From Dyella telluris (lineage in GTDB: Bacteria > Pseudomonadota > Gammaproteobacteria > Xanthomonadales > Rhodanobacteraceae): 64,000 bases of DNA. The position numbers and the translations under genes are program-made. Below the pieces are notes generated by a model. That model saw only the letters and a list, made by a program, of their open reading frames with translations, searched no databases and had not been told where the DNA came from. Below, one piece after another: positions 19,948 to 38,404 of this stretch; the stretch's first letter is position 1; each line of letters starts with the position of its first letter. The stretch lies in contig NZ_CP060412.1 in the NCBI RefSeq assembly GCF_014297575.1, positions 558,001 through 622,000 on the forward strand. The letters run 5' to 3'.

Positions 19948-21387
19948 TCAGGATGCGGGCAAGCGCGACGCCTTCCATGCGGCCAGCCGCTCGTCAATGT
20001 AGCGATCCACCTCCGCCTCGGTCTTCAGTACCGGCATCACGTGCCCGGTGTTGCCCTGCGCATCGGGTACGGGCAGGCGCGACACCAGCTCGGCGTAGAC
20101 CTGTTGCAGATGCGAAGGCTCGCCTGCCGCCGGGTTCTTGCCCTTGGAGGTGGGCGGCATCACGCCGGCCAGCGGATCGTCGGTGCGCGGCGTGGCGAGC
20201 GTGAGTGCATCGCCCACGTCGGGCGCCGCCGCGTCGCGGGCGGTCAGCGCCGCCACGCCCCAGCGTGTTTCCACCGTGCGCAGGATCGAGGTGTGGTCCA
20301 GCGCCATGCTGCCGGCGGGCACGCGGAACACCGTGCCGGCGGCAATCAGCGGCGAGATCAGCAGCGTGGGCACGCGTGGCCCGAAACGTTTGAAGTCGAA
20401 GCCGTATTCGCCAGCCGTCGCATCGGGCGGAACCGCGTTGGTCGGCGGCGGCACGTGGTCGTAGCAGCCGCCGTGCTCGTCATAGGTCACGATCAGCAGC
20501 GTCTGGTTCCACAGCGGGCTGCTGCGCAAGGCGGTATAGACGTCGTGGATCAGCTGCTCGCCCAGCGACACATCGTAGTTGGGATGCTGGCTGTTGCCGC
20601 TGGAACCCCAACTGGGTTCGAGGAACACGTAACTGGCCAGCGTGCCATGGGCAGCCGCCGCCTGGAAATCCGCGAACTTGCCGAAGTTGGCGTCCGGCGC
20701 ATTCACCAGGTCGCTGTACGACACGCGCGTGAGCGGTTCGGCGTTGTAACCGTAGACGGCCCACGACACGCCTTTCTCCGACAGGGATGCATAAATGGTT
20801 GGCGCGGTGAATGACTTGGTGGCGTCATCCATATGGCCCTGCGACGTACCCGTCTGCGTGAACGCGCGATTGGGCAGCGTTTCGGTGGGCGCCGAACCGA
20901 ACCAGTGATCGCATACGGCAAAGCCGCGCGCCAGCGCCGACAGCACCGGCAAGGTCTGCGGCGTGTGCATGCCCATGATGTCGGAGGCCACGGTGCCGGC
21001 CAGGATAGAGCGCTTCTGCTGCGCCTCCCACGCCAGCGTGGCGGCGAAATTGCTCACGAAACCGTTGTTGCCGGCCACCGGCGGCGTGGGCGCCGTGCTG
21101 CTGCCGAACAACTGCGCATTGGTGGCGCTGTAGCCCTCGCCGGGATCGGCGCCCGGCATGAAATAGGTGCTGGTGGTGCCCTGCGCGATGGGAAACACGG
21201 TCACGGCACCGCTCGCACCCGGGTTGCTCTCCTTGCCGGTCAGCCCTTCGAACGGCTGTCCGGTGGGCGATACATTGCCGGTATCGGCGTAGAGGTAGCC
21301 CAGCATGTGATCGAAAGAACGGTTCTCAAGCATCAGCACCACGATGTGGTTGATCGCAGACAACCGGTTCGCCTTCGGAGTAGCCAT
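19948..21387 (-). CDS. Phosphoesterase family protein (phospholipase C / acid phosphatase AcpA type)
   Basis: A 479-residue protein of the PF04185 phosphoesterase family. It begins INHIVVLMLENRSFDHMLGY, where Glu-Asn-Arg-Ser-Phe-Asp-His is the signature metal and nucleophile region. Later come LPNRAFTQTGTSQGH, LLIVTYDEHGGCYDHVPPP (metal site) and LDHTSILRTVE. These enzymes hydrolyse phosphatidylcholine, sphingomyelin or phosphate monoesters. No Sec or Tat signal is seen at the N terminus, unlike most secreted members, so the location is uncertain. Confidence 0.88.
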   Translation of the reverse strand: MATPKANRLSAINHIVVLMLENRSFDHMLGYLYADTGNVSPTGQPFEGLTGKESNPGASGAVTVFPIAQGTTSTYFMPGADPGEGYSATNAQLFGSSTAPTPPVAGNNGFVSNFAATLAWEAQQKRSILAGTVASDIMGMHTPQTLPVLSALARGFAVCDHWFGSAPTETLPNRAFTQTGTSQGHMDDATKSFTAPTIYASLSEKGVSWAVYGYNAEPLTRVSYSDLVNAPDANFGKFADFQAAAAHGTLASYVFLEPSWGSSGNSQHPNYDVSLGEQLIHDVYTALRSSPLWNQTLLIVTYDEHGGCYDHVPPPTNAVPPDATAGEYGFDFKRFGPRVPTLLISPLIAAGTVFRVPAGSMALDHTSILRTVETRWGVAALTARDAAAPDVGDALTLATPRTDDPLAGVMPPTSKGKNPAAGEPSHLQQVYAELVSRLPVPDAQGNTGHVMPVLKTEAEVDRYIDERLAAWKASRLPAS

Positions 21388-21592
21388 GTCGCCGCCTTGG
21401 GATTGCGGGGGGATGGGGCCTGTTTCGCCGGCCGGCCTGTATGCATTCCATCATCGCAAGGTGTCTGGTGCATTACCCGGCGGCCCTCGCGGCGCTCAGC
21501 TTCAGGCGGACTGAAGTTTCGCCACGCCACGCCGATAAAGCCCACGTCGCCTGATGAACCGGGCGCCGACCACCCTTCATGGCGGAACACGC

Positions 21593-22210
21593 ATGCTGCA
21601 AACGGCACCGGACATCGCTTATCTCAAGGCCGCATGGGCCGCATTCGCGGGCATCAGCGGCGCCAACGCCCAGCAAAGCTACGAGGCGGCCGGCCTGAGC
21701 TTCACGCGCATCAACCACTCCACCCTGGTGCGCAAGAACAACGTTCAGGTGTCCACCATGCCTCTGCACTACACGCGCCATGACTTGCGCGTGGGCTTTC
21801 TTGGCCGCATCGAGAATGAAGTGCGCAAGGCGGTCAACGAGATGGATGCCGTGTTCTGGCGCGACCTGTGCGTGCCCGAAGGCCATCGCGTGGTGGTCGA
21901 GCTCGAAGAATGCCTGCGCATGCTGCGTCGCCGCGGCAACCGTTCGCTGTCCATCCTGATCCAGCCCGATGGTAACGCCTCCGACACCCGCGTGCAGGTG
22001 GAGATACGCGTGTTCCTGGACTCCCCGCGCGCCTGCCTGTACGCCCATGCGGCGGACGCCACCACCCATGGCTTTGTCGACCTGCTGGAAGATGTCCCCA
22101 AGCGCGCGCGCATGCCCCGTGCCCGCGACTACGCCGAGCTGGCCAGCCAGGTGAGCGCCACGCTGAACGAGGCCATCGCGGCCTTCCCGCGCGCCCAGCT
22201 GGCCGCCTGA
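21593..22210 (+). CDS. Hypothetical protein
   Basis: A 205-residue soluble protein of unknown function. It is rich in charged residues, has no signal or membrane segment, and contains a central helical-then-strand pattern (VVVELEECLRMLRRRGNRSLSI). ATG at 21593 with GGCGGAA upstream is chosen over the ATG at 21554. It is divergent from the phosphoesterase gene, with about 205 bp between starts. Confidence 0.65.
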   Translation: MLQTAPDIAYLKAAWAAFAGISGANAQQSYEAAGLSFTRINHSTLVRKNNVQVSTMPLHYTRHDLRVGFLGRIENEVRKAVNEMDAVFWRDLCVPEGHRVVVELEECLRMLRRRGNRSLSILIQPDGNASDTRVQVEIRVFLDSPRACLYAHAADATTHGFVDLLEDVPKRARMPRARDYAELASQVSATLNEAIAAFPRAQLAA

Positions 22211-22230
22211 ACGGCTATTCGGCGGGACGT

Positions 22231-22683
22231 CTATTCGACAGGAATGTAGATATCCGTTTCCGAGGCCGGGTCATCCGGCCCGGTGAAGCGCTCGTCGTAA
22301 CGCTCAAATTCCACCCCGGACCGCGAACGCAGCCCCAGCTTGGGCAGCAGGCGGGTATGGATGGCCTGGAAGGCTTCACCAATGCCCGCCACCACGCCGC
22401 GGTGGGTGAATACGCCGTACTTCTGCGCGGGCACCGTGAACTTCACCATGCCATCGGGCACGGCCGCATCGTGCGCCACCGGAATGCCCGCCACATACCG
22501 CAGCATGCCGTCCGGCATGGCCGCGCACACGCCATAGGCAATGCCGGGTTCCACATTGGGGCCCACTTCCTGCTCACGCGGCAGGAACCGGTCCCACAGC
22601 GCCCCGATGCCCGTGGGGCTGCGCGAGATGTACTCCAGTCCGACAACCGTAAAAGCGGGCAACGACACGATCCGATGATCCAT
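22231..22683 (-). CDS. GyrI-like/AraC effector-binding domain protein
   Basis: A 150-residue protein with the GyrI-like small-molecule binding fold (SOUL/AraC effector-binding). Signs are VVGLEYISRSPTGIGALWDRFLPRE, IAYGVCAAMPDGMLRYVAGIPV and VPAQKYGVFTHRGVVAGIGEAFQAI near the middle and end. Stand-alone members bind hydrophobic drugs or act as hydrolases for cyclopropanoid compounds; the ligand here is unknown. ATG at 22683 is used because the fold starts there. Confidence 0.82.
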   Translation of the reverse strand: MDHRIVSLPAFTVVGLEYISRSPTGIGALWDRFLPREQEVGPNVEPGIAYGVCAAMPDGMLRYVAGIPVAHDAAVPDGMVKFTVPAQKYGVFTHRGVVAGIGEAFQAIHTRLLPKLGLRSRSGVEFERYDERFTGPDDPASETDIYIPVE

Positions 22684-22910
22684 GGGGGCGTCCCGGCGAC
22701 AGCGATGAACGAAGCCCAAGCCTAAGCCACACGCCGCCCAGCACAAGGGGGATAAATGGGCTACGTGCGCCATTGGTCCCGATGCGTCTCGCCCCGTGCG
22801 GAGATGTCGAAACCGGCGGCCGCCGTTCGTCGCAAGGATAGACGCGGCCTTCGCCCCCGGCGGCCGAGGATGCGTCCACCCTCACACCGTCCCAGCGCCC
22901 GAGGCCCGTC

Positions 22911-23633
22911 ATGTCCCAAGCGTCCCCCGTGATCCCTGCCCTGCTTCCTGTTGCCGAGCTGGTCCAGCGCAACGGCAGCAGTTTCAGCGGCGAAAGTCCC
23001 GAGTACCGCCATGCCCGCAACGCGTTGCTGGCCGAAGAACTGGAGCTGCGCCGGCACATTGAACGCGTGGCCGAGCAACGCCGCGCGCTGCCGCCAGGCC
23101 CCGAGGCAAAGGGCGACTACCGCTTCATCGGCGAACACGGCCCGGTGGACCTGGCCGGCCTGTTCGGCGACAGGCAGACCCTGGTGACCTACAGCTACAT
23201 GTTTGGCCCCCAGCGCGAACGGCCCTGCCCCATGTGCACGTCGTTGCTGGGTGCATGGAATGGCGAAGCCCGTGATATCCAGCAACGCGTCGCCCTGGCG
23301 GTCATCGCCCGCTCGCCACTCGAACGCCTGGCCGCCTTCAAACAGGAACGCGGCTGGAAGGATCTGCCGCTGTATTCGGACCACAACGGCGAGTTCAGCC
23401 GCGACTACCACGCCATCGCCGACGACGGCAGCGACATCCCTGCGTTCAATGTCTTCACCCGACGCGATGGCCGCATTCGCCTGTTCTGGGCCGGAGAAAT
23501 GGGCATGGCCACCGCCGACCCCGGCCAGGACCCGCGCGGCGCCCCGGACCTCATGCCGATCTGGACCATCCTGGACTGCGTGCCCGAGGGCCGCGGCACC
23601 AGCTGGTATCCGAAGCTGGATTACGGCAGTTGA
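22911..23633 (+). CDS. DUF899 thioredoxin-like family protein
   Basis: A 240-residue protein of the DUF899 family, predicted thioredoxin-fold proteins. The motif PCPMCTSLLGAWN carries a CxxC pair (Cys-Pro-Met-Cys), preceded by LVTYSYMFGP. The helix EELELRRHIERVAEQRRALPPGP before it is typical. The function is not established. It is divergent from the GyrI-like gene. Confidence 0.85.
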   Translation: MSQASPVIPALLPVAELVQRNGSSFSGESPEYRHARNALLAEELELRRHIERVAEQRRALPPGPEAKGDYRFIGEHGPVDLAGLFGDRQTLVTYSYMFGPQRERPCPMCTSLLGAWNGEARDIQQRVALAVIARSPLERLAAFKQERGWKDLPLYSDHNGEFSRDYHAIADDGSDIPAFNVFTRRDGRIRLFWAGEMGMATADPGQDPRGAPDLMPIWTILDCVPEGRGTSWYPKLDYGS

Positions 23634-23679
23634 TCGACACGGAACGGGTCGCCACGCGGCGGCCCGTCCGGGTGATCCA

Positions 23680-24087
23680 TCACCCCATCGTCTTCAGGCA
23701 ATTGACCATCCACGCCTTGCCGAAGCGGTCGGTGAGCATGCCGAAGCGATGCGCCCAGAAGGTTTCGGCGATGGGCATGGTCACCTCGCCGCCTTCGGAC
23801 AAGGCCTTGAATACGCGTTCGGCTTCGGCCGGGTTGTCGACGTCGATGTTCACGCATCCCCTGGAGATGGCCGCGTTCGGCGGCGCGTCCGCACCCATCA
23901 GGATGCTGTGGGGCGTTTCCAGTTGCGAATGCATCACGCGCCCGTGGGTTTCCGGCGGCATGTCCTTGGCCATGGGCGATTCGCCGTAGGTCATGCGCAT
24001 GGTGATCTTGCCGTTGAACGCCTTGGCGTAGAAATCGAACGCTTCCCGCGCCTGGCCATCGAAATCGAGATAGGGAATGAACTTCAT
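23680..24087 (-). CDS. VOC/PhnB-like family protein
   Basis: A 135-residue vicinal-oxygen-chelate protein of the PhnB/3-demethylubiquinone-methyltransferase-like group. The N terminus is FIPYLDFDGQAREAFDFYAKAF, with the ILMGADAPP and ETFWAHRFGMLTDRFGKAWMV strands. The usual metal ligands of glyoxalases are only partly kept. GGAGACGCC precedes ATG at 24087. The role is unknown. Confidence 0.85.
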   Translation of the reverse strand: MKFIPYLDFDGQAREAFDFYAKAFNGKITMRMTYGESPMAKDMPPETHGRVMHSQLETPHSILMGADAPPNAAISRGCVNIDVDNPAEAERVFKALSEGGEVTMPIAETFWAHRFGMLTDRFGKAWMVNCLKTMG

Positions 24088-24283
24088 GCGGCGTCTCCTG
24101 CCTGGTGGGTACCGTGCGCCTCCCGGCCGGCCACGCGCACGCGGCAACCGCCATCGAGGTCACCCATGGAACCGCGCCAGTCATCAGGGTGGTCAGGCGC
24201 GCGGTTCATCAGAATGACGAACGCGCGTCTCATGGATCGACATCAGGCCACGCACCGGGCGAGCCCGGCGCCCGGCCGGGCGA

Positions 24284-26059
24284 TCAGGCGCGGGCCATGC
24301 CGTGCAGTTCGGTATCGGCAATCACGCGGTTGCGACCGGTGCGCTTGGCGCGATACAGCGCGGCGTCCGCTTCCTTTCGCAACAGCCCCAGCTCGTAGCC
24401 GGAGCTGTCGGTGGAGGCCAGGCCAATGCTGGCCGAGAACGTCACCAGGCGACCATCGCCATCCACCGGGGTCGATTCGATGGCAGCGCGGATGCGATCA
24501 GCAATGGCCACGCCCTGCTCGCGCGTGCAATCCGGCAGCAGGATGCCGAATTCCTCGCCGCCCAGCCGGCCGAACAGGTCGGTAGGACGAAGCTGGCGCC
24601 GGCACAACGCCACGGTATGACGAAGCACCACGTCGCCCACGGCATGGCCGTGGGTGTCATTGATCAGCTTGAAGTGATCCAGGTCGATGGAGATCAGGCA
24701 GGCCGCACCGGACTTCCGCTCCGTCTGGTGCAGCACGCGATCGGCCTCGCTCACGAAATGCTGGTGGTTGTAGATGCCGGTCAGGCTGTCCTGGTACGAC
24801 AGCATCTTGAAGCGCAGCTGCGAGCGCTTGATGCGGAACAGCCAGAACACGATGGATACCATCAGCATGATCAGGAAGGCGATGTAGAGCCGGCTGGTCT
24901 CCACCGCCTTGGTGTCCAGCTGCTGCTGCAGGCGCAGGATGTTGTTCTGCTTGCTCAGGCCTTCCGCCTCCAGCCGTTGTGCAAGCAGATGCTGCTGCAC
25001 GGTGGCATAGGCCAGCGACCGGGCGCTTACGTCGTTGAGGTAACCCTTGTCCTGCGCCACGAAGTGTTCGTAGTAGGCCAGCGATGCGGCGGCGTTACCG
25101 CGCTTTTTCTCGACCTTGTAGAGCACCTCGTAGGCGTTCCTCACCCACTGGCTGACTTCGTCCTGGCCGCTCATGGACAGCACGGCCAGCGCCGCCTTGC
25201 GGGCGTTATTGTCGTCGCTCAGCTTTTCATAGGCCTGGCCCAGCTGCACCTGGGCCGCCCGCATGTGCGAGTAGTAGCCGTTGGCGTTGATGCCGGGCAG
25301 GATGCGATGGATCAGTTCCAGCGTCTTGGCGGGCTGGTCTTCGCTCAAGTAGAGATCGCCCTTGATCAGCATGAGCGTCTCGGCGAATACGGGTTGCCCG
25401 GCCGCGGTGCAGGTGTCGATCGCCTCCAGCAGCTTCTGGCTGGACGAGGTCAGCTTGCCGCTGTTGTTCAGCGCAGCGACTTCGATCGACAACGGGTTGC
25501 ACAGGCTTTCGCCCGGGGGCAACGAATCTTCCATCATGCGGGCGTACTTGATGGCCAGGTCGCTCTGCTCCGCGAACATCATCAGCTGCGACAGGTTGGA
25601 CAGCACGGTGAAGCGCGCGAGCCGGTCGCTGATGCTGGGCAGGTCCGAAGCCAGCTGATTGGCCAGGCCGAACGCATCCTCGTAGCGGTTGCCCAGGCCG
25701 TAGTTGTGCATGAGCAGGGCCGTGGCCTTCGCCTGCAGGGTGACATCGCCGGAGTGATCCATGATGTCCCGCAGCATGGCGTTGGCCTTGCTGGTGTCGC
25801 CTTCGAACGCCAGCTGCCAGGCATCCAGGTAACGCAGATACCAGCGCTGCGCCGAGGTCAGCTCCGGGGCTTCGTCGTGGATCTGCGCCAGCATGCGCAG
25901 GAAGCGCGGATGATCGGTGGTCCGCACGCCTTCCGTCTGTTCGAGAAACGCCGTCGGGTCGGAGACGACCTCGACGGCGTTTGCCGTGCCCAGCAGCGCG
26001 CAGGCCACCATGCCCGCCGAAGCGAGCCGTAGCAGAACCCTGTGCCACTGCCGGTGCAT
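24284..26059 (-). CDS. TPR-transmembrane-GGDEF diguanylate cyclase
   Basis: A 591-residue sensor that would make cyclic-di-GMP from two GTP. In order: signal or anchor segment (about 8-28), an extended periplasmic TPR-like helical domain (about 45-360), a coiled coil (about 360-390), one membrane helix (391-409) and a cytoplasmic GGDEF domain from about 420. The active site reads GGEEF at 500-504. The inhibitory RxxD site is intact as Arg491-Pro-Thr-Asp494, five residues before it. The gene starts 9 bp after the stop of the borosin-precursor-like gene, so they are likely co-transcribed. Confidence 0.92.
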   Translation of the reverse strand: MHRQWHRVLLRLASAGMVACALLGTANAVEVVSDPTAFLEQTEGVRTTDHPRFLRMLAQIHDEAPELTSAQRWYLRYLDAWQLAFEGDTSKANAMLRDIMDHSGDVTLQAKATALLMHNYGLGNRYEDAFGLANQLASDLPSISDRLARFTVLSNLSQLMMFAEQSDLAIKYARMMEDSLPPGESLCNPLSIEVAALNNSGKLTSSSQKLLEAIDTCTAAGQPVFAETLMLIKGDLYLSEDQPAKTLELIHRILPGINANGYYSHMRAAQVQLGQAYEKLSDDNNARKAALAVLSMSGQDEVSQWVRNAYEVLYKVEKKRGNAAASLAYYEHFVAQDKGYLNDVSARSLAYATVQQHLLAQRLEAEGLSKQNNILRLQQQLDTKAVETSRLYIAFLIMLMVSIVFWLFRIKRSQLRFKMLSYQDSLTGIYNHQHFVSEADRVLHQTERKSGAACLISIDLDHFKLINDTHGHAVGDVVLRHTVALCRRQLRPTDLFGRLGGEEFGILLPDCTREQGVAIADRIRAAIESTPVDGDGRLVTFSASIGLASTDSSGYELGLLRKEADAALYRAKRTGRNRVIADTELHGMARA

Positions 26060-26068
26060 GCCGATGGC

Positions 26069-26341
26069 CTAGCCGTTGAGCACCGAAGCGTCGGGCTCCG
26101 TCGGCTGGTCCTCTTCCTCTTCCTCTTCCTCGGGGAAGGTCTGCGAGCTCTGGCTGCCGTACATGGAAAGCGGCGTACCGAACTCCTGCGCAAGCCACGC
26201 GCTGTCACCGGACGCCACGGCAGCCTTCAACGCTTCGGATGCGTCAGCCGCATCAAGCGTGTCGACCAGCGAATCACTCGAAGCATGACGCAGCGTGGCG
26301 TCCTGCCCGATGGCTTCAAGCCAATCCATCGTATCAGTCAT
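26069..26341 (-). CDS. Putative split-borosin precursor peptide
   Basis: A 90-residue peptide. Residues 1-55 resemble the borosin-binding (recognition) domain seen in split-borosin precursors such as Shewanella SonA: MDWLEAIGQDATLR, an intervening helix, then LKAAVASGDSAWLAQEFG. The tail from 56 carries a short candidate core (TPLSMYGSQSSQTF, 56-69), seven Glu and Asp at 71-78, and a C-terminal VLNG. There is no signal peptide. AGGGGGACA lies upstream of ATG at 26341. The adjacent upstream gene is a SonM-like N-methyltransferase, which strongly supports the assignment; the downstream GGDEF gene is 9 bp away. Which residues are methylated cannot be read from sequence. Confidence 0.72.
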   Translation of the reverse strand: MTDTMDWLEAIGQDATLRHASSDSLVDTLDAADASEALKAAVASGDSAWLAQEFGTPLSMYGSQSSQTFPEEEEEEEDQPTEPDASVLNG

Positions 26342-26509
26342 ACATTGTCCCCCTCGTTTTAGCTGTGATGGTATTGCAACGATCACTGCTCCCTGCGCGC
26401 CTCAATCGCACAGGCCTAGCTTGCCGAAACACGATGACAAGCGTCACCGTTTTCTCTGATCACGCCCCGCGCCAGCGGCCCTCTCCGCCGCGCCGGGTCA
26501 CTCACGTCT

Positions 26510-27349
26510 TCAGGCCGGTTCGCCGGCCGCTTCCATGGCTTCCAGTTCCGCCAACCGGGCACGCACGGCCTGGTTCGGCTTCATCGCACGCGCCGGGGGC
26601 AACACCACGGTTTCCTCGGCGGTCAACTCGATATGCGGCAGTTCGCGCAGCGCAAAGCGACGGATGCGCGGCTGCTGGATTGGCAGCGTAGCCGCCCGAT
26701 AGACGATCAGCTCGTGGTCGAGCGGATAGTCCTGGGCCAGCAGGTCCACGAACAGTTGCCGATAGGCCGGCCCCGTGGCACGGAACCGCGCCAGCGACTG
26801 GTCGCCCACATGCCCCACCTGCCACAGCACCAGATAGCCGGTGGGGTCGATGCGGCGTTCAAACAGCAACAGCTGGCTGGCCTCGAAATGCTGGCAGCCG
26901 AAGCGGCCGGGATCGATGCCCAGGTCCGCATAGAGGCAATCCTCGGCGGAAATGCCGGGCTCCATGTGGGCGTGGAATCCCTCGGCGCGGGCCACCTCGA
27001 TGACCTTGTGCGGCGACCAGGCAAAGATGCCGGGATGCCCGTAGAACACGCCGCAGACGCGCTTGCCGGCGCGCACCTCGGCCATCATCACGGCGACCCA
27101 CTCTCGGTAGGTGGTCGCGCGCGACTTGCCTTCGCGGTAATAGGGCTGGAGGCTGCGCACGTCCGCATGCATGCGCTGTAGCCAGGCTTCCACGATGCCA
27201 TCGGACAGACCGGCAAAAACCACGTCCGACTGGGTGATGTGGCTGCGCGCCAGCGGCGTCAGGTGCGACCCCAGGGTCATGCCCAGCCCGACACACGCGA
27301 GGCTGCCGCGGCGTGTCTCTGTCGATGTCGACATCGTGGAAGGTTCCAT
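26510..27349 (-). CDS. Borosin-type peptide backbone alpha-N-methyltransferase (SonM/OphMA-like)
   Basis: A 279-residue protein of the tetrapyrrole-methylase fold that matches the borosin methyltransferases, which methylate backbone amides of ribosomal peptides with SAM. Visible family features are SLACVGLGM (SAM-binding loop, 16-24), KSRATTY with Arg77 and Tyr81 at the place of the catalytic Arg/Tyr pair, VFYGHPGIFA with Tyr103, EPGISAEDCLYADLGIDP (130-147) and YLVLWQVGHVGD. The C-terminal third (YPLDHELIVY, LPIQQPRIR) fits the bacterial split type rather than precorrin methylases. There is no fused precursor at its C terminus; the separate precursor lies 168 bp downstream. ATG at 27334 is an alternative start. 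Confidence 0.85.
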   Translation of the reverse strand: MEPSTMSTSTETRRGSLACVGLGMTLGSHLTPLARSHITQSDVVFAGLSDGIVEAWLQRMHADVRSLQPYYREGKSRATTYREWVAVMMAEVRAGKRVCGVFYGHPGIFAWSPHKVIEVARAEGFHAHMEPGISAEDCLYADLGIDPGRFGCQHFEASQLLLFERRIDPTGYLVLWQVGHVGDQSLARFRATGPAYRQLFVDLLAQDYPLDHELIVYRAATLPIQQPRIRRFALRELPHIELTAEETVVLPPARAMKPNQAVRARLAELEAMEAAGEPA

Positions 27350-27742
27350 CCGTCGATATTAAGGCAATTTTCAGCTGCCGGGGGCTCCATGCGGTCTATG
27401 ACAAAGAGCTACCCGATCCAGGCTCACGCCGCGGGGTTGAACCATGGGCGCGAAGCGCTGCGAAATAGGCATGAAGCACGAGGCAGGCAGCAGAAATCGA
27501 GCCCCTTCGCGCAGGCAACCTTTCGATGCCAGCGGGGCACTCACGCAGGTTTGGACAGCCGGTGCGCCACCCGCGCCGGCGACCGGACAGATATGACAGC
27601 GTTGGACATGGCCGGTAAAACTCCTGGCTCTTGCGGCAGCCCGGCGGATACGCGCATGGTTGCCTGCCCGGACCCCCGGCCGACTGCCCCGGCACGGGCC
27701 GCCCGCCTGTCTCCCTCCACGTGCATTTCGAGGTTTACCGCA
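27350..27742. other. 393-bp intergenic region between divergent genes
   Basis: It separates the divergent methyltransferase and peroxiredoxin genes. On the minus strand an AT-rich TTAATATCG lies only 8 bp before the methyltransferase ATG at 27349, which could be a -10 element giving a near-leaderless transcript, but no good -35 accompanies it. I see no repeat, RNA or additional gene. Confidence 0.4.
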
Positions 27743-28357
27743 ATGAACAAGCGCCTCATGGGTTCCCTGGCCACCGCCGCACTCGGCGTCGGCATGATGC
27801 TCGCCTCGCCCGCCTTTGCCGCGATCAGCCAGGGTGCAACCGCTCCCGCCTTCACCGCCCAGGCCAGCCACGACGGCAAGAGCTCCACCGTCTCCCTGGC
27901 GGATGCGCTCAAGAAGGGCCCGGTCATCGTGTACTTCTTCCCCTCGGCCTATACCGGCGGCTGCGACATCGAGGCACACGCCTTCGCCACCGAGGCGGCG
28001 AAATTCGCCGCTGCCGGGGCCACCATCATCGGCGTCTCCGCCGACTCCATCGACCGGCTCAACAAGTTCTCGGCCGACCCGAGCTACTGCGCCGGCAAGT
28101 TCCCGGTGGCTTCCGACCCGGACGGCAAGATCGCCAAGCAGTTCGACGTGAAAATGTCTGCCGCCGAACCCGGCGCCAAGGACGTGCAGGGTGAAGCCAT
28201 CGAACACGGCTTCATCTCCCGCGTGACCTTCGTGATCGGCAAGGACGGCAAGGTGGCGGCGGTGTTCTCTTCCGAAGCCGACCACCTGCACCCGCAGGAG
28301 CATGTGAGCAAGTCGCTCGCCGTGGTGCAGCAGTTGCAGGCGGGCAAGGCGCCCTGA
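27743..28357 (+). CDS. Exported peroxiredoxin (BCP/PrxQ-like)
   Basis: A 204-residue thiol peroxidase with a signal peptide (to about residue 27, AFAA), so it would reduce hydroperoxides in the periplasm. The peroxidatic Cys74 lies in FFPSAYTGGC, which keeps Pro67 and Thr71 of the P-x-x-x-T-x-x-C motif. A second Cys116 (PSYCAGKFP) could be the resolving Cys. ATG at 27743 follows CGAGGTTTACCGCA. It stands alone. Confidence 0.88.
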   Translation: MNKRLMGSLATAALGVGMMLASPAFAAISQGATAPAFTAQASHDGKSSTVSLADALKKGPVIVYFFPSAYTGGCDIEAHAFATEAAKFAAAGATIIGVSADSIDRLNKFSADPSYCAGKFPVASDPDGKIAKQFDVKMSAAEPGAKDVQGEAIEHGFISRVTFVIGKDGKVAAVFSSEADHLHPQEHVSKSLAVVQQLQAGKAP

Positions 28358-28412
28358 GGTTCGGGGCATCGGGGCAAAGGCGCTGGGTGACCAGCCCTTC
28401 GGCTGTTGAAAA

Positions 28413-28446
28413 GCGCCTCCCGCTTCCGCGGGAATGACGGTGAGGA
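28413..28446 (+). repeat. Half copy of the 'gcgggaatgacggtgagg' repeat
   Basis: The sequence ccgcgggaatgacggtgagg at about 28427-28446, preceded by cgcttc, matches one arm of the large inverted repeat at 53352-53456. It lies in the 193-bp gap between the peroxiredoxin and the acidic protein. The opposite arm is not present here. Confidence 0.65.
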
Positions 28447-28550
28447 TACCGGGCCTCCACCAGCGCCTCACCGCGCCCCGTCACGGAATCGTCGCTTGCA
28501 GTCCCACGGGGCACCCGGCAAGCTTCCGCGTTTGACCAACCGGAGCCCCC

Positions 28551-28826
28551 ATGTCCTCGCAAGAAACCATCATCCAGATCATGCCCGCCACGGGTTGGGT
28601 TGCCGTGTTCGACGAAAGCGGCGACGAGAGCGCGGAAGCGCTCGTGTGCTTCGCGCTGGTGGAGTCCGTGCAGAACGGCACCACGCGCCGTGACGTGCGC
28701 CCGATGCTGGTGAACGGCAAGCAGATCAGCTTCGCCGACGCCGCGCCGAACTTCCTGCGCGTCGAAGAACTCGAAACCTTCGAGGACGAAGAGGAAGAAG
28801 ACGAAGAGGAAGACGGCGAGGAGTAA
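28551..28826 (+). CDS. Hypothetical small protein with acidic tail
   Basis: A 91-residue protein. The first 70 residues look like a small beta-rich domain (IIQIMPATGWVAVFDE, EALVCFALVE). The last 16 are almost all Glu/Asp (EDEEEEDEEEDGEE). I do not recognise the family. It lies 1.2 kb from the borosin locus but lacks the recognition-domain pattern of the 26069-26341 peptide. A strong terminator follows, so it is probably monocistronic. Confidence 0.7.
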   Translation: MSSQETIIQIMPATGWVAVFDESGDESAEALVCFALVESVQNGTTRRDVRPMLVNGKQISFADAAPNFLRVEELETFEDEEEEDEEEDGEE

Positions 28827-28853
28827 TCCTCACCACTCCGCTTCATCCACGAC

Positions 28854-28883
28854 GGCCGGCAGCCTTGCCGGCCTTTGTTTTTT
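28854..28883 (+). terminator. Rho-independent terminator
   Basis: An 8-bp stem (28854-28861 with 28866-28873), loop GCCT, followed by TTTGTTTTTT. It ends the acidic-protein gene and touches the end of the convergent oxidoreductase gene. Confidence 0.88.
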
Positions 28884-29878
28884 CAGGGTGCCACTTCCAC
28901 GACGACCTTGCCGCGCGCTTCCCGCCGCTCGATCAGGGCGTAGGCATCGGCCACGGAGGCCAGGTCGAAACGGCGCGGGTCCACGAACGGCGTGATCTTC
29001 CCCTCATCCGCCAGCCGCGCGACATTGCGCAGGATATGGCCATGGTGTTCGCGGCCTTCGCCTGTCAGCAACGGCAGCAGGGTGAACACGCCCGAATACG
29101 TGCCGGCGCGAAACGACAGCGGCGCCAGCGCATGCGTGCCCCAGCCCAGCGCGCTCACCACGTGGCCAAAGCGCTTCACCGCATTGAACGACGCATCGAT
29201 GCCGCTGCCACCCACCGTGTCGTAGACCAGGTCGAAACCGCGTCCGCCCGTATGCTCGGCCACGTACTGCTCCACCGGCGTGTCGCGATCGATCGGCGCG
29301 GCGCCCCAGCCGCGGATCTGCTCCGCCTTGGACGCGCCGTCCACCGCGAAAACCGTGGCGCCAAAAGCGCGCGCCAGCTGGATCACGGCATGGCCCACGC
29401 CGCCGGCACCCTGCACCAGCACGGTCTGCCCGGCCTTCACCTGGGCGCGATCGACCAGGCCTTCCCATGCCGTGATGTACACCAGCGGCATCGCCGCTGC
29501 CTCGGGCACGCCGATACCGGATGGGCGTGGCGCGAGCAGGCGCGCGTCCGCCGCCTGGTATTGGGCCAGCGAACCGGGCACGCCACCGACGCCACCGGTC
29601 ATGCCGTACACCTCGTCACCGGGGCGGAAGTCGGAAACGCCCGGCCCGACACTTTCCACCACGCCGGCCATGTCGATGCCGAGGATGGCCGGCAACGGCT
29701 GCGCCGCGTGACCGGCCTTGCCGGCGCGAATCTTCAGGTCGAGCGGATTGACCGCGCTCGCCCCCACGCGCACCAGTACCTGCCCGCGCCCCGGCACGGG
29801 ACGCGGCACGTTGGCCACCTGGAAGGCGTCATCGTGTTGGGTGAGCAAGGCAGCCTGCATCGACGGAACAGCATTCAT
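28883..29878 (-). CDS. Quinone oxidoreductase-like zinc-independent alcohol dehydrogenase family protein
   Basis: A 331-residue medium-chain dehydrogenase/reductase. The N-terminal GroES-like domain contains VLVRVGASAVNPLDLKIRAG. The nucleotide-binding domain has VLVQGAGGVGHAVIQLARAFGA (NADPH-type loop). It lacks the structural-zinc cysteines, as in the QOR group. It would reduce quinones or enones. ATG at 29878 has GAGGA 8 bp upstream. A small membrane protein gene lies 17 bp upstream on the same strand and may share the transcript. Confidence 0.9.
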   Translation of the reverse strand: MNAVPSMQAALLTQHDDAFQVANVPRPVPGRGQVLVRVGASAVNPLDLKIRAGKAGHAAQPLPAILGIDMAGVVESVGPGVSDFRPGDEVYGMTGGVGGVPGSLAQYQAADARLLAPRPSGIGVPEAAAMPLVYITAWEGLVDRAQVKAGQTVLVQGAGGVGHAVIQLARAFGATVFAVDGASKAEQIRGWGAAPIDRDTPVEQYVAEHTGGRGFDLVYDTVGGSGIDASFNAVKRFGHVVSALGWGTHALAPLSFRAGTYSGVFTLLPLLTGEGREHHGHILRNVARLADEGKITPFVDPRRFDLASVADAYALIERREARGKVVVEVAP

Positions 29879-29895
29879 CGCACGGTCCTCATGAT

Positions 29896-30246
29896 TCAGC
29901 GGTACGAACCCCGCATCGCCTCGCGCCCGTTGCGCACCAGCGATACCGGTTTGCGCAACAGTGCGCCCAACGGGTGATTCGACACATAGGCCGCGCGAAT
30001 CAGCGCCATCAGCTGCTGGGAGTAAAGCGCGCACCCCACCAGCACCTGCAGCTCCAGCACGGCAAGAAACGCATCAATGCCCACGGAGTCGATGGCCAGC
30101 GCAGCGGGCGCTGACTCCGGGTGGCACAGCAATGCCAGTACCACCACCGTGGTGGCCACGCCAATCAACCACTTGCGTATGTCCTTGCGCCGCCACTCGG
30201 CCGACAGCGCCTCCAGCGTGAACCACTGCGGATCCAACCAGGCCAT
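29896..30246 (-). CDS. Hypothetical small membrane protein
   Basis: A 116-residue protein with two predicted membrane segments (about 26-42 and 56-78) and a basic C terminus. No family is recognised. The start is fixed by GGAGGTGTC directly before ATG at 30246. It lies 17 bp before the oxidoreductase gene at 29878 and is divergent from the Tat hydrolase gene at 30451. Confidence 0.75.
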   Translation of the reverse strand: MAWLDPQWFTLEALSAEWRRKDIRKWLIGVATTVVVLALLCHPESAPAALAIDSVGIDAFLAVLELQVLVGCALYSQQLMALIRAAYVSNHPLGALLRKPVSLVRNGREAMRGSYR

Positions 30247-30450
30247 GACACCTCCTTGCGGGCTCCCCCGCCCGGTCCTGCCCTGCATATAGGCGTCGAT
30301 CTGAAAACAAAAGGGGCCCCGGCGGGTTTGTATCCGAATGTATCCCCGGGCCCCTCGGGTACACGACCTTTCAATACCGCCGCTTCTCCACACAGAGGCG
30401 ACACATGCGGATGGTCTTCTATACGCCTGCCCACCGGAGAAAGACCCGCC

Positions 30451-31509
30451 ATGTCCGACCTGATCAACCCCAAGCGCCGCAGCTTCCTTGGCGCCACCGC
30501 CCTTGGCCTGGCCATGGCACCGTTCGGCTTCGCTACGCTGGCCCGTGCCGAATCCAACGGCCCGGCCGCCGACGGCGCCGCCGGCAAGCAGGTGCCCAGC
30601 GGCGGGCGCACCTCGTTCAAGTCCATCAAACACGTGAAGGCGGGCGTGCTGGACGTGGCCTATGCCGAAGATGGCCCGGCCCACGGCACACCCGTGCTGC
30701 TGCTGCACGGCTGGCCGTATGACATCTACAGCTTCGTGGATGTGGCCCCCGTCCTGGCGGCCGCCGGCTACCGCGTGATCATTCCCTGGCTGCGCGGCTA
30801 CGGCGAGACGCGCTTCCTCTCCGCCGACACCCCGCGCAACGGCCAGCAGGCAGCACTGGCGCAGGACGCCATCGACCTGCTCGATGCACTGAAGATCGAC
30901 AAGGCCATCGTCGCCGGCTTCGACTGGGGTGCACGCACGGCCGACATCCTGGCCGCGCTGTGGCCGGAACGCTGCAAGGCGCTGGTGTCGGTCAGCGGCT
31001 ACCTTATCGGCAGCCAGGAGGCCAACCATGCCCCGCTGCCGCCCAAGGCCGAGCAGCAGTGGTGGTACCAGTACTACTTCACCACCGCGCGCGGCGAAGC
31101 CGGCTACGCCAAGTACACGCACGACTTCGCGCGCCTGATCTGGGAAACGGCCTCGCCGAAGTGGGGCTTTGACGACGCCACCTTCGCCCGTTCCGCCGCC
31201 GCGCTGGACAACCCCGACCAGGTCGCCGTGGCCATCCACAACTACCGCTGGCGCCTGGGCCTGGTCGAGGGCGAGTCGCGCTTCGACGCGCTGGAGAAGA
31301 AGCTCGCCGCCTTCCCCACCATCGGCGTACCCACCATCACCATGGAAGGCGACGCCAACGGTGCCCCCCACCCGGATGCCAGCGCCTACGCCAAGAAGTT
31401 CACCGGCAAGTACGAGTACCGCCTGATCACTGGCGGCATCGGACACAACTTGCCGCAGGAAGCACCACAGGCCTTCGCCAAGGCCGTGATCGACGTCGAC
31501 CACTTTTGA
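30451..31509 (+). CDS. Tat-exported alpha/beta hydrolase with Asp nucleophile
   Basis: A 352-residue alpha/beta hydrolase with a twin-arginine signal (NPKRRSFLGATALG, residues 6-19). The nucleophile elbow is GFDWGAR with Asp158, the oxyanion loop HGWPYD at 86-91, and the catalytic His in GGIGHNLPQEA near the end. An Asp nucleophile points to epoxide hydrolase or haloalkane/haloacetate dehalogenase chemistry rather than esterase. It is followed after 20 bp by a cytochrome P460-like gene. Confidence 0.85.
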   Translation: MSDLINPKRRSFLGATALGLAMAPFGFATLARAESNGPAADGAAGKQVPSGGRTSFKSIKHVKAGVLDVAYAEDGPAHGTPVLLLHGWPYDIYSFVDVAPVLAAAGYRVIIPWLRGYGETRFLSADTPRNGQQAALAQDAIDLLDALKIDKAIVAGFDWGARTADILAALWPERCKALVSVSGYLIGSQEANHAPLPPKAEQQWWYQYYFTTARGEAGYAKYTHDFARLIWETASPKWGFDDATFARSAAALDNPDQVAVAIHNYRWRLGLVEGESRFDALEKKLAAFPTIGVPTITMEGDANGAPHPDASAYAKKFTGKYEYRLITGGIGHNLPQEAPQAFAKAVIDVDHF

Positions 31510-31529
31510 CCGGCTACCTGGACTCTTCG

Positions 31530-32039
31530 ATGAAAACCTTGCTGGCTACCACGGCCGCCATCGGAATGATGATGGCGGGCATTCTCGCCGCGACCTCGCA
31601 TGCCAGCGAGCCGGCCGCCACGCCCGCCTCGCCCGTCTACGGTGTCACCCTGCCCCAGGGTTATCGCCAGTGGGAACTCATCGCACCCGCGCTGGAGGAT
31701 GCACCGCTCAACGAACTGCGCGCGGTGGTGGGCAATGCCGTCGCGGTGGATGCCTATCACCGCGACAGCCAGCCCTTCCCCGACGGCACCGTGCTGGTGA
31801 AACTCGCCTGGAAGCGCCAACCCTCCGCCGAGTTCGCCAGCGCCACCGTGCCCGGTGCAGCCACCACTGTGCAGGTAATGGTGAAGGATTCGAGGAAATA
31901 CGCCGCCACCGGCGGCTGGGGCTTTGGGCGCTTCGTCAATGGCCAGCCCGCCGACGAAGCCCAGCACCGCACCTGCTTCGCCTGCCACGAGGCGCGCGCC
32001 AAAGGACACGACTATGTGTTCACGAGGTATGCGCCCTGA
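31530..32039 (+). CDS. Exported cytochrome P460-like protein
   Basis: A 169-residue periplasmic protein with a signal peptide (about 1-26) and a single heme c motif CFACH at 149-153 near the C terminus, as in cytochrome P460 family proteins. Upstream are the family patterns GYRQWELIAPAL and GWGFGRFVNGQP. P460 enzymes oxidise hydroxylamine or detoxify NO; many homologues in heterotrophs are of unknown role. The Lys cross-link residue cannot be confirmed. It starts 20 bp after the Tat hydrolase gene, so is likely co-transcribed. Confidence 0.83.
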   Translation: MKTLLATTAAIGMMMAGILAATSHASEPAATPASPVYGVTLPQGYRQWELIAPALEDAPLNELRAVVGNAVAVDAYHRDSQPFPDGTVLVKLAWKRQPSAEFASATVPGAATTVQVMVKDSRKYAATGGWGFGRFVNGQPADEAQHRTCFACHEARAKGHDYVFTRYAP

Positions 32040-32182
32040 GCGCTGAAAGGCGTTATCCGGCGTCCGGTCATCGGCCCGATCACGGGGACTCGACGCAACG
32101 GTGATGCGGCAGGGCCTACCCTCCAGATGAAAAGCAAAGGCATGCCTGACACGTCTGCTTTCAAACGGACAGGGAGCTGCGT

Positions 32183-32575
32183 ATGCAAGTGGAATACCGG
32201 GAAGTTCCCATGCTGGCACGGTGGCAGCACTCCAACCCGCATCGCCCCGCACCGCCCGACCTGGGTAGCGGGCAGATCCGGAGCTGGGAGTGTCGGATCG
32301 ACTCTTCCACCGTCGGGCATTGCTCCGGCAACGCGCGCACTGGCCAGGTGCTGGGCCTGATGGTTGAGCACGGCCATGAGGGCAAGGGCATCGGCACCCA
32401 GCTTCTTTCGCTGGTCGTCAGCTGGCTTCGCGCGGAGCAGGTAAAGAGGCTCTGGCTTGAAGCACCCTTGTCGCCCCAACCGCGTGCCCGCCGGTTCTAT
32501 CAGTCACGCGGGTGGGTTTCCACCGGGCGCAGGGTAGGTACTGAGATGGAGATATTCGAACTTCGGAACGAATAG
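32183..32575 (+). CDS. GNAT family N-acetyltransferase (short)
   Basis: A 130-residue protein with the C-terminal half of a GNAT fold: VLGLMVEHGHEGKGIGTQLL (acetyl-CoA loop with G-x-G-x-G-type pattern) and LEAPLSPQPRARRFYQSRGWV (motif B). The N-terminal half is shorter than usual and the target is unknown. The first 30 residues fit poorly, so the start or completeness is uncertain. Confidence 0.65.
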   Translation: MQVEYREVPMLARWQHSNPHRPAPPDLGSGQIRSWECRIDSSTVGHCSGNARTGQVLGLMVEHGHEGKGIGTQLLSLVVSWLRAEQVKRLWLEAPLSPQPRARRFYQSRGWVSTGRRVGTEMEIFELRNE

Positions 32576-32714
32576 CCGGCGACCCGAACTTTGCCGGGCC
32601 GACACGGTCCCAACCCCGACTGCTCCATACCTGCGGGACACCGCCGGCACTGGCTGCGCCCTTTCCGGCGCGGACAGGGAGGGGGCAGGCAACGCTGCCG
32701 AACGGAGTTCGCAG

Positions 32715-33413
32715 ATGGGGATGGAACAAGCCACGTCGAATGACCCTCACCCATCCGCCCGCCGGGTGGTGGCCCTGGCCGTCGCCATCAGCACCCATCT
32801 CGTCATCCTGCTGGTGATGCTTCGACCCGCAGCCCCGGGCGCCGATGCACCGGTGAAATCGGAAAGCCGCCCAGCCACGCTGAAGCTGCGCCTTGTTTCG
32901 CAACCGCGGGTGGTGTCTGCCTCGCCTCCCCCGCTACGTACGGCGGCCACATCGTTCGACCGTGCACAGCGCCCAGGAAAAGTGAAGTCACCGCCTCCCA
33001 CACACGCCTCACCGCCGGTTGTCACCAGCGCGCCGGAAACGGAGTCCCGGCCCCTGGCATTACCCGCCGTCGCCACCGGGCAGCCCGCGAACTTGGCACC
33101 CACCGACGGCGACGGTGGATTCCGTGACCGCATGCGCAACGCCCAGCACGTGCAGGATATCCATGGCGTTCCCGGTTCAGACCGCGCCGTGGCGCCAGGC
33201 ATGGCGTTGATCAACCCCATGGATCAAGGCATCGGTGCCGTGGTGCGAAACGCGCAACGCCTGTTCGGCGTCGCCGACCATCACTGCATCGACGTTGATG
33301 TCTGGCTGCACCTCAGCGCCGACGAACTCATCGCACGACACCTCACGGTGGCCGACGTCGACAAGGTCTCGGAGAAATACCACTGCAACCGACCGATGGG
33401 GCTCAACTTCTGA
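32715..33413 (+). CDS. Proline-rich membrane-anchored protein, TonB-like N terminus
   Basis: A 232-residue protein with one membrane segment (about 17-36, VVALAVAISTHLVILLVML). A Pro/Ser/Ala-rich periplasmic linker (about 45-125) and a C-terminal domain with two cysteines (HHCIDVD and YHCNRP) follow. The architecture resembles TonB, but no TonB C-terminal signature is visible. No ExbB/ExbD is adjacent. Function unknown. Confidence 0.7.
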   Translation: MGMEQATSNDPHPSARRVVALAVAISTHLVILLVMLRPAAPGADAPVKSESRPATLKLRLVSQPRVVSASPPPLRTAATSFDRAQRPGKVKSPPPTHASPPVVTSAPETESRPLALPAVATGQPANLAPTDGDGGFRDRMRNAQHVQDIHGVPGSDRAVAPGMALINPMDQGIGAVVRNAQRLFGVADHHCIDVDVWLHLSADELIARHLTVADVDKVSEKYHCNRPMGLNF

Positions 33414-34617: not shown

Positions 34618-35556
34618 ATGGATGCACGCCACGCGAAGTACCAGCGACTCATCGATCGTTGCCAGAGCATGCCGCCTACGCCTACTGCCGTGGCGCATCC
34701 TTGTGACGGATCGTCTCTGCAGGGAGCGATGGAAGCGGCACGGCTCGGCCTGATCGCGCCCATCCTGGTCGGTCCGCTGGACCGGATCAGGGCGGCTGCC
34801 GCCGACAGCGGCATCGACCTTTCAGGTGTCGACATGGTCGACGCACCGTACAGCACCGCCTCGGCAGCGGCAGCGGTGGCCCTGGTACGTGAAGGCAAGG
34901 CCGAAGCGCTGATGAAGGGAAGCCTGCATACCGATGAACTGATGGGCGCGGTGGTGAAGCGCGAGACGGGGTTGCGCACCGCTCGCCGGGTCAGTCACTG
35001 CTTCGTGATGGACGTGCCGGGGCATGAAGACGCGCTGATCATCAGCGATGCCGCGGTCAACATTGCGCCCACGCTGGAGGAGAAGGTGGACATCCTGCAG
35101 AACGCCATCGACCTCGCCCACGCCCTGGGCGTGCCCGAGGTGCGGGCGGCCATTCTCTCGGCGATGGAAACCGTCAATCCGAAAGTACCCTCCACGGTGG
35201 AAGCGGCGGCCTTGTGCAAGATGGTGGATCGCCATCAGATCACGGGCGCGATCGTCGATGGTCCGCTCGCGCTGGACAATGCCATCAATCTTGAAGCGGC
35301 AAAGATCAAGAAGATCGAGTCGCCGGTGGCTGGGCGCGCGAACATTCTTCTGGTGCCGGACCTGGAAGCCGGCAACATGTTGGCCAAGAGCCTTACCTTT
35401 CTGGCCGGAGCCGACGCGGCGGGCATTGTGCTGGGTGCGCGCGTGCCCATCATCCTCACCAGCCGCGCTGATTCCGTCATGAGCAGGCTCGCGTCCTGTG
35501 CGATAGCGAGCATGGTCGCCGCGGCCCGCCGTGAGGGCGGGAAGATCCTGGGGTAA
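34618..35556 (+). CDS. Phosphate acetyltransferase (short, Pta/Ptb family)
   Basis: A 312-residue phosphotransacetylase that would convert acetyl-CoA and phosphate to acetyl phosphate. The fold and motifs match the short Pta/phosphate butyryltransferase group: AMEAARLGLIAPILVGP, ALMKGSLHTDELMGAVV, DAAVNIAPTLEEKVDI, GPLALDNAINLEAA and NILLVPDLEAGNMLAKSL. GAGGT precedes ATG at 34618. Acetate kinase follows after 4 bp. A butyryl or propionyl substrate cannot be excluded. Confidence 0.9.
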   Translation: MDARHAKYQRLIDRCQSMPPTPTAVAHPCDGSSLQGAMEAARLGLIAPILVGPLDRIRAAAADSGIDLSGVDMVDAPYSTASAAAAVALVREGKAEALMKGSLHTDELMGAVVKRETGLRTARRVSHCFVMDVPGHEDALIISDAAVNIAPTLEEKVDILQNAIDLAHALGVPEVRAAILSAMETVNPKVPSTVEAAALCKMVDRHQITGAIVDGPLALDNAINLEAAKIKKIESPVAGRANILLVPDLEAGNMLAKSLTFLAGADAAGIVLGARVPIILTSRADSVMSRLASCAIASMVAAARREGGKILG

Positions 35557-35560
35557 TGCC

Positions 35561-36745
35561 ATGGCGGATGTCGTCCTCGTCCTCAACGCCGGATCCTCCA
35601 GCATCAAGTTCAGTGCCTTTGACGGAGGCAAGGCAAGCTTGCCATTGATTCTTCGCGGACAGGTCGAAGGCCTGTATACCGCGCCGCGCTCGCTTGCCAA
35701 GGATGCCGCGGGGGCCGAGATCGAATCGAAATCGTGGAGTGACAACGCCACCTTTGGGCACGAAGAAGCCATTGCCTATCTGATCGACCTTCTGCGTTCG
35801 CAGCGGGGCGACCACCGGCTGGTCGCCGTGGGCCACCGCATCGTCCATGGGGGCATGTTTTTCGACAGGGCCACGCGGATCGACGAAGGCGTGATGGCCA
35901 AACTTCAGACGCTGACGCCACTGGCACCACTGCACCAGCCGCACAACCTCAAGGCGGTCGACATCGTCACCCGGATTCGCCCTGATCTTCCCCAGGTCGC
36001 CTGTTTCGACACAGCCTTTCATCGGACGCAACCCGAATTGGCGCAGGCCTTCGCCCTGCCCGCCGCCATTACCGATCGCGGCGTGCGCCGATACGGATTT
36101 CACGGTCTATCGTATGAATACATCGCCAGCGTCCTGCCGACGTTCGATGCGAAAGCAGCGCGGGGGCGCACGGTGGTGGCACACCTTGGCAACGGCAGCA
36201 GCATGTGCGCCATGGTGAACGGCCGCAGCGTGGCGAGCACCATGGGCTTCACGGCGGTCGAGGGTCTGCCGATGGGAACGCGTTGCGGCAGCGTCGATCC
36301 CGGCGTCATTCTCTATCTGCTTGCCGAGTTGAAGATGGACGCCAAGGCCATCGAGGATCTCATCTACAAGCGCTCGGGCCTGCTGGGCGTATCCGGCCTG
36401 TCCAGCGACATGCGTACCTTGCTGGCCAGCGACGATGCACGCGCGGCGTTCGCCATCGACCTGTTCACCTATCGCATCGCGCGTGAGCTCGGCTCGCTCG
36501 CCGCAGCCAGTGAGGGCATCGATGCCATCGTGTTTACCGCGGGCATCGGCGAAAACTCACCCGACATCCGGCAGCGTGTCTGCGAGCGCGCGGCCTGGCT
36601 GGGCGCTGTCATCGACGAGGATGCCAATCGTGCAGGCAGTGCTTGCATCAGCACGCCGTCCAGCCTTGTCTCCGTCTGGTCCATTCCGACCAACGAAGAG
36701 CTGATGATTGCCCGGCACACGCAAGCGCTTCTGGCCGAAGCGTGA
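35561..36745 (+). CDS. ackA: Acetate kinase
   Basis: A 394-residue acetate/propionate kinase that turns acetyl phosphate and ADP into acetate and ATP. The N terminus VLVLNAGSSSIKF is the phosphate-binding signature. GHRIVHGG, CFDTAFHRTQP, RRYGFHGLSYEY, VVAHLGNGSS and TAGIGENSPDIR are all family motifs. The length is normal. ATG at 35561 is 4 bp after the pta stop, so coupling is likely. It is convergent with the transporter gene, 51 bp apart. Confidence 0.96.
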   Translation: MADVVLVLNAGSSSIKFSAFDGGKASLPLILRGQVEGLYTAPRSLAKDAAGAEIESKSWSDNATFGHEEAIAYLIDLLRSQRGDHRLVAVGHRIVHGGMFFDRATRIDEGVMAKLQTLTPLAPLHQPHNLKAVDIVTRIRPDLPQVACFDTAFHRTQPELAQAFALPAAITDRGVRRYGFHGLSYEYIASVLPTFDAKAARGRTVVAHLGNGSSMCAMVNGRSVASTMGFTAVEGLPMGTRCGSVDPGVILYLLAELKMDAKAIEDLIYKRSGLLGVSGLSSDMRTLLASDDARAAFAIDLFTYRIARELGSLAAASEGIDAIVFTAGIGENSPDIRQRVCERAAWLGAVIDEDANRAGSACISTPSSLVSVWSIPTNEELMIARHTQALLAEA

Positions 36746-36796
36746 GACCCGGAACGGGTTGACGGCCATGCTTGCCCTGGTCGCCGCGCTACGTCA

Positions 36797-38386: not shown

Positions 38387-38404
38387 GGCCCTTCTCCTTA
38401 CGGA

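Follow-up and report, generated by a model that had tools for sequence, protein, structure and literature searches.

The window analysed here is the whole stretch of 64,000 nucleotides from Dyella telluris, whose genome is a single contig of 4,991,029 bases. On its minus strand three genes follow one another in the order methyltransferase, precursor peptide and GGDEF protein, with gaps of 168 bp and 9 bp between them. The earlier note had described the first two as an enzyme with its peptide. The open reading frame 26510-27349 is present with the motifs SLACVGLGM, KSRATTY, VFYGHPGIFA and EPGISAEDCLYADLGIDP, and the precursor-like peptide is found on the same strand, 168 bp past the methyltransferase stop codon, running from 26341 to 26069. 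Both genes were thus correctly recognised, while the third, the GGDEF protein that begins 9 bp past the peptide, was omitted. The features of the locus are the following:

26510..27349, minus strand: SonM-like peptide alpha-N-methyltransferase, 279 residues, ATG start (coordinates include the stop codon)
26069..26341, minus strand: borosin precursor, 90 residues, ATG at 26341 (open reading frame, homologous frames and profile match to SonA)
26177..26341, minus strand: borosin binding domain (leader), precursor residues 1-55, five predicted helices
26132..26176, minus strand: candidate core peptide TPLSMYGSQSSQTFP, precursor residues 56-70, placed by its position after the leader as in SonA
26108..26131, minus strand: acidic tail EEEEEEED, precursor residues 71-78
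24284..26059, minus strand: sensor diguanylate cyclase, 591 residues, Pfam GGDEF at 140 bits
24998..25969, minus strand: TPR-like helical sensor, predicted periplasmic, residues ~31-354, with invariant Cys187 and Cys217
24836..24889, minus strand: predicted transmembrane helix (residues 391-408), flanked by basic residues towards the GGDEF domain
24311..24808, minus strand: GGDEF domain, residues 418-583, with GGEEF (500-504) and RxxD (491-494)

The two gaps carry no terminator-like site on the minus strand, and neither a promoter-like site between 24000 and 27900 nor an Rfam family within 20000-33000 was found. The best explanation, to which we give a probability of about 0.5, is that the locus is a split-borosin operon of three genes, which would be transcribed together, and that the methylated product or the precursor would be the input of the cyclase.

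Elsewhere in the window, genes for a phosphotransacetylase, an acetate kinase, an Asp-Al_Ex permease, a radical SAM protein and a pyruvate-formate-lyase-like glycyl radical enzyme stand in a row at 34618-41527, in what looks like a fermentation cluster, and another GGDEF protein, with a PAS domain, is encoded at 48959-50800 on the plus strand. The plus-strand frame 28551-28826, of 91 residues with the acidic C-terminus FEDEEEEDEEEDGEE, has a weak DUF6253 match below the cut-off; it was considered as a second precursor and discarded, the leader-profile scan of window frames of at least 40 residues having listed only 26072-26401.

Identity of the three gene products

The earlier note had proposed to weigh borosin against tetrapyrrole scores for the methyltransferase, and the comparison came out in favour of its reading. 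In a search of all PDB sequences, SonM (7ltc) is matched over residues 15-266 with E 1.1e-71 and 245 bits and OphMA-type enzymes with 6e-46 to 1e-50 (160-176 bits), whereas the best tetrapyrrole methylase, a precorrin-2 methyltransferase, reaches 24 bits (2.2e-4). The fold, matched by Pfam TP_methylase with 71 bits, would also suit a tetrapyrrole (cobalamin or siroheme) methylase standing beside an unrelated small frame. However, besides the difference in PDB scores, seven NCBIfam tetrapyrrole models score 12-17 bits against cut-offs of 163-400, the highest of the tetrapyrrole models, YabN, scores 36.6 bits against 525, and the profile of the precursor matches SonA; we give this alternative hardly any chance of being correct. 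The claim that cobalamin and siroheme genes are missing nearby also held in a Pfam scan, which recognised 0 tetrapyrrole genes among the 20 ORFs between 19948 and 50800.

The nine residues discussed in the accessible part of PMC8429565 were placed through the SonM alignment and tallied in 82 named relatives. Eight of them, Y71, R77, Y81, Y103, F109, E156, W176 and Q177 (SonM Y58, R67, Y71, Y93, F99, E146, W166 and Q167), are kept in 82/82, and the ninth, SonM E173, is replaced by D in 70, by N in 11 and by I in one. Arg77, Tyr81 and Tyr103 had already been placed properly and align, by hand-counted positions, with SonM R67, Y71 and Y93. It is close to certain that methyltransferase and precursor constitute a split borosin and, judging from their sequences, the enzyme and the small peptide very probably make a backbone-methylated peptide (borosin).

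A homologous small frame was found at 117 of the 121 loci examined (a count that includes repeated loci), so the precursor of 90 residues is not a chance ORF. At three of the four loci without a match to the precursor profile (L103, L131 and L143) the contig ends 0-124 bases past the enzyme. The fourth, L121, has 2.1 kb more sequence and a cyclase; its frame 1607-2122 appears by eye to be a divergent precursor that the leader profile missed; its leader is shortened, its core reads CCVMFPVKEDD and its tail is acidic. Precursors were collected from locus L071 onward and, once near-copies, frames above 130 or below 65 residues, weak matches and unclear starts had been removed, 86 were kept; alignment A2 holds 85 of them, one from L110 being left out, together with the window peptide. 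Single-sequence searches of Pfam, NCBIfam and PDB with the precursor gave nothing useful, and SonA surfaced only with the profile of 86 precursors built on this alignment, whose top seven PDB matches are all SonA. The structural model has five helices and its three Foldseek matches are again all SonA. According to profile and model, the leader is a predicted five-helix borosin binding domain.

Conservation of the core among relatives is weak (PQxxQxPGHE). In the window the core TPLSMYGSQSSQTFP is mixed in composition and less hydrophobic than the CC-rich, CCMLMP-like cores of many relatives; by position it is the candidate target of methylation. By hydropathy the precursor lacks a signal peptide, and one of the 86 precursors passes the cut.

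Concerning the third gene, the product of 24284-26059 is predicted to be a diguanylate cyclase, synthesising c-di-GMP, from its intact GG(D/E)EF motif: GGEEF is invariant in the 73 cyclases of alignment A3 (72 of 74 cyclases plus that of the window). The segment ahead of the GGDEF domain is hydrophobic in 73/73 homologues, and in 73/73 the stretch that follows it is more positively charged than the one preceding it; the N-terminus misses the hydropathy cut in 14/73 and a further hydrophobic stretch lies inside the sensor in 5/73. From hydropathy, the TPR-like sensor is predicted to be periplasmic and the GGDEF domain cytoplasmic. Below E 0.2 Pfam matches nothing in the sensor, and the PDB offers no convincing sequence relative (best E 0.18). 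With the AlphaFold2 model of the cyclase (pLDDT 88.9), the matches that cover the sensor, among 50 listed that are mostly GGDEF domains, are 8jaq (CRL2-APPBP2) and three chains O of the anaphase-promoting complex, and the modelled TPR-like superhelix resembles a degron receptor. RRNPP receptors are absent among the same 50 matches, which carries no weight either way.

Conservation of the trio and of precursor-cyclase pairs

We searched 233 genomes of the family and found the enzyme in 162 (E 1e-15) and the sensor in 158 (E 1e-10). Comparison of the two lists by eye gave 157 genomes with both, 70 with neither and 6 with one only; since the genomes are related, these counts are not independent. 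Five of the six have only the enzyme, belong to one genus and carry distant enzymes (E ~1e-64 to 1e-73), and the single genome with only the cyclase is 86% complete. Enzyme, precursor and cyclase stand together in each of 40 family regions chosen among the listed matches, 15 of these 40 fetched loci repeating places among the 80 named loci. The latter, the best 80 named relatives, come from Dyella, Rhodanobacter, Frateuria, Fulvimonas, Luteibacter and a few others, and carry 82 enzymes. For the 71 enzymes (70 loci) with at least 2.5 kb of sequence downstream, a precursor follows in 71/71 and a cyclase within 2.5 kb in 66/71. The enzyme and peptide pair of the earlier note, rightly assigned to the split-borosin type, is therefore part of a module that is neither rare nor isolated, as the 162/233 genomes and the trio indicate.

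In the order as a whole, the enzyme was found in 204 of the 398 genomes drawn from it, and the trio at 8/9 loci from two other families, all of them among the best matches; the exception, [Pseudomonas] boreopolis, has no cyclase. A sample of the class gave the enzyme in 9/369 genomes. At seven class loci outside the family (L187-L193, with flanks of 1.5 kb) neither a leader below E 0.8 nor a cyclase was seen, and for this reason our claim for the trio is kept within the order.

Some variants of the arrangement were also seen. At L110, L126 and L135 (Rhodanobacter) and at L061 and L067 (family), a single enzyme is followed by three to five precursors together with one or two cyclases. An internal stop in some second enzymes was considered as a sign of decay and rejected, since in the one case viewed (G057/L202) it lies, by coordinates, at the edge of the match. 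Distant borosin-type enzymes, with 26-42% identity, occur in 12 plasmid records, whose hosts are Streptomyces, Bradyrhizobium, Sinorhizobium, Burkholderia, Azospirillum, Mycetohabitans, Pantoea, Legionella and one Haloarcula.

The acidic tail of the precursor goes with the cyclase. We counted acidic residues in 129 of 166 precursors (unique, 60-135 residues, with 1.7 kb or more of downstream sequence). Beyond residue 55, at least six D/E are present in 111/119 precursors with a cyclase within 1.5 kb, against 2/10 without one (Fisher 3e-7, ancestry not corrected for), leaving 8/119 cyclase-linked precursors with few acidic residues. Two changes, which we read as losses, are needed to place the cyclase-free state on the enzyme tree, built from 71 rows. 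One is a clade of four (L138, L140, L144 and L147, of which L200, L203, L199 and L197, respectively, are repeats) with short tails such as AVQLFAVQL; in three of these precursors, one of them from [Pseudomonas] boreopolis, the acidic tail is missing and the C-terminus is AVQLFAVQL or nearly so. The other is Luteibacter L148, with precursors ending HEDSLLN or HEDEDSLFN, where those of L137 and L142 continue into an acidic tail. As loss of the cyclase accompanies a short, little acidic tail, the tail seems to have its use with the cyclase and not with the enzyme, although two events are few.

Precursor and cyclase are also found as pairs away from the enzyme. The genome of the window has one enzyme and two precursor-cyclase pairs, the second (G000:C1:2625270-2626723, within L156:4554-7006) lying about 2.04 Mb away with no methyltransferase alongside; its precursor, of the MSSVIEFLERLG type, has an acidic tail and is next to a second sensor cyclase. 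Such enzyme-free pairs occur at 5/9 further places in relatives (L194, L195, L196, L198 and L201), whose genomes have a single enzyme (G047, G056 and G059) or two (G050 and G052). At nine other loci with this precursor type, among those examined, the enzyme is present (L175-L178 and L180-L184). All but one of the six precursors without an adjacent enzyme are intact, with pairwise dN/dS of 0.19-0.47 over ten pairs, dS being near saturation in several. The sixth, L198:5261-5749, has its first leader helix out of frame and looks like a decaying precursor; the cyclase gene downstream of it is open. The existence of these pairs implies that an enzyme elsewhere works in trans or is dispensable. In one further genome, G048, two cyclase matches and one precursor match were seen, and a cyclase may have lost its peptide there.

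Co-variation of core and sensor and the proposed mechanism

To follow which partner each part of the precursor tracks, we used 73 of 88 pairs, dropping 10 in which the GGDEF motif was unclear or the precursor frame too long, and 5 that lacked an upstream enzyme. The core co-varies with the sensor, given the enzyme (r 0.515), and not with the enzyme, given the sensor (r -0.015); the first value is partly due to loci with two pairs per enzyme. With one pair per locus (n=63), the correlation with the core is r=0.265 (p 0.002) for the sensor given enzyme and GGDEF, r=0.019 (p 0.38) for the enzyme given sensor and GGDEF, and r=0.108 (p 0.022) for the GGDEF domain given sensor and enzyme, while GGDEF and leader give r=0.036 (p 0.27) under the same condition; these are mirror-tree permutation p-values, uncorrected for shared ancestry. 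The leader correlates with the sensor at 0.468 and with the enzyme at 0.213 in the 63 pairs; in the DTI-type subset (n=41) the enzyme (0.344) exceeds the sensor (0.258). This pattern would fit contact of the leader with the enzyme and of the core with the sensor.

A use of the peptide in signalling is suggested by the third gene of the operon, which encodes a membrane sensor predicted to make c-di-GMP. In the mechanism that we propose, the SonM-like enzyme would bind the five-helix leader of the 90-residue precursor and methylate backbone amides just past it, as in SonM-SonA. The product, or the precursor itself, would be the cognate input of the co-encoded cyclase: its periplasmic TPR-like superhelix would bind the peptide, and binding would set c-di-GMP synthesis by the cytoplasmic GGDEF domain. 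We put forward this signalling step tentatively, at somewhat less than even odds. The broader proposal, in which each precursor would be the dedicated ligand of its co-encoded TPR-sensor cyclase across much of Xanthomonadales and one methyltransferase would serve several unlinked pairs, is more tentative still.

With the sensor predicted in the periplasm but the precursor devoid of a signal peptide, the gap in this mechanism is transport. No exporter or peptidase was recognised beside the module in 40 loci, for ORFs of at least 120 residues and clusters judged by eye: the neighbour clusters present at more than 10 loci consist of frames that overlap the trio, and a peroxiredoxin cluster seen at 10 loci was taken to reflect shared gene order. 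Clusters in 6-9 loci were identified in part, so that a sporadic helper gene is possible. N-methylation is said, in the accessible text of PMC8429565, to help peptides cross membranes, and passage through the membrane by this means would be one possible answer.

Two other explanations have to be weighed against the signalling mechanism. The cyclase-free branch implies that the peptide can have another use, and it might be an exported natural product, e.g. an antagonist or a metal ligand, with the cyclase controlling only the timing of its production or release. The borosins known to us are natural products, and a cyclase in the operon could report the signal that sets production. However, for such a product one must explain why the core tracks the sensor, and weakly the GGDEF domain, and not the enzyme, why precursor-cyclase pairs persist without an adjacent enzyme, and why no transport or immunity gene was recognised among the recurring neighbours; moreover, the set is kept in most family genomes, which is unusual for a variable product. 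We judge this explanation rather unlikely.

Alternatively, nothing is exported and the precursor is a cytoplasmic partner of the cyclase, its leader or acidic tail touching the GGDEF domain or the coiled coil and methylation tuning the contact. This would agree with the missing signal peptide, with the failure to recognise an exporter or peptidase, with the pairs that have no enzyme alongside and with the weak GGDEF-core signal (r 0.108, p 0.022). Still, co-variation is mainly with the sensor, which is predicted to lie across the membrane, and the leader shows little relation to the GGDEF domain (r=0.036, p 0.27); we regard a purely cytoplasmic contact as improbable. The signalling mechanism, with the peptide as ligand of the sensor, is accordingly kept here as the working proposal, at the tentative level given above.

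Relation to known systems and significance

The closest known system is SonM-SonA of Shewanella oneidensis, a type IV borosin with separate adjacent genes for enzyme and precursor and a five-helix leader, as in the window (accessible part of PMC8429565). The catalytic residues are those of SonM, eight of nine being kept, and, just as the SonM-SonA pair is described in that part as kept in the majority of sequenced Shewanella genomes, the trio of the window is widespread. The window precursor differs from SonA by a different, less hydrophobic core sequence and a long acidic tail, and the locus differs by its third gene, the sensor diguanylate cyclase, of which the accessible part of PMC8429565 makes no mention. 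The fungal OphMA and dbOphMA belong to the same methyltransferase family, but there the precursor is fused to the enzyme, while here it is separate. With its GGEEF, RxxD, signalling helix and transmembrane segment, the cyclase is similar to membrane sensor diguanylate cyclases (GGDEF, PF00990), although its sensor has no convincing sequence relative in the PDB and travels with a borosin precursor. The likeness to RRNPP peptide-pheromone receptors is one of idea only, a TPR superhelix reading a peptide; those receptors are cytosolic and belong to Gram-positive bacteria.

Split borosins are widespread in bacteria according to two groups, and types V-X have been defined (accessible part of PMC11285071). 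A GGDEF-sequence-containing domain is listed, in the legend to Figure 1 of PMC11395268 (2024), among the elements of the type scheme, so the association of GGDEF with borosins is already in print; no function is given for this element in the accessible part of that paper. Our search, which covered literature outside subscription and is weak in this respect, found no paper linking borosins with a diguanylate cyclase, Rhodanobacter or Lysobacter; what came up, for GGDEF and Xanthomonas as well, was the 2024 type III paper and a review on plant peptides. Compared with the accessible parts of the cited papers, the co-occurrence of the sensor at the genome level, the enzyme-free pairs and the tracking of the sensor by the core are apparently new.

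The family-wide trio and the core that tracks the sensor provide a concrete receptor to test. To our knowledge, little has been settled about the role that bacterial split borosins play in the organisms producing them. Should the peptide turn out to be the ligand, c-di-GMP signalling would be seen to use a modification familiar from natural products, and one class among the many cyclases with unknown inputs would gain a named input. Backbone N-methylated ribosomal peptides would then be, if the proposal is true, inputs of c-di-GMP signalling, across or between cells.
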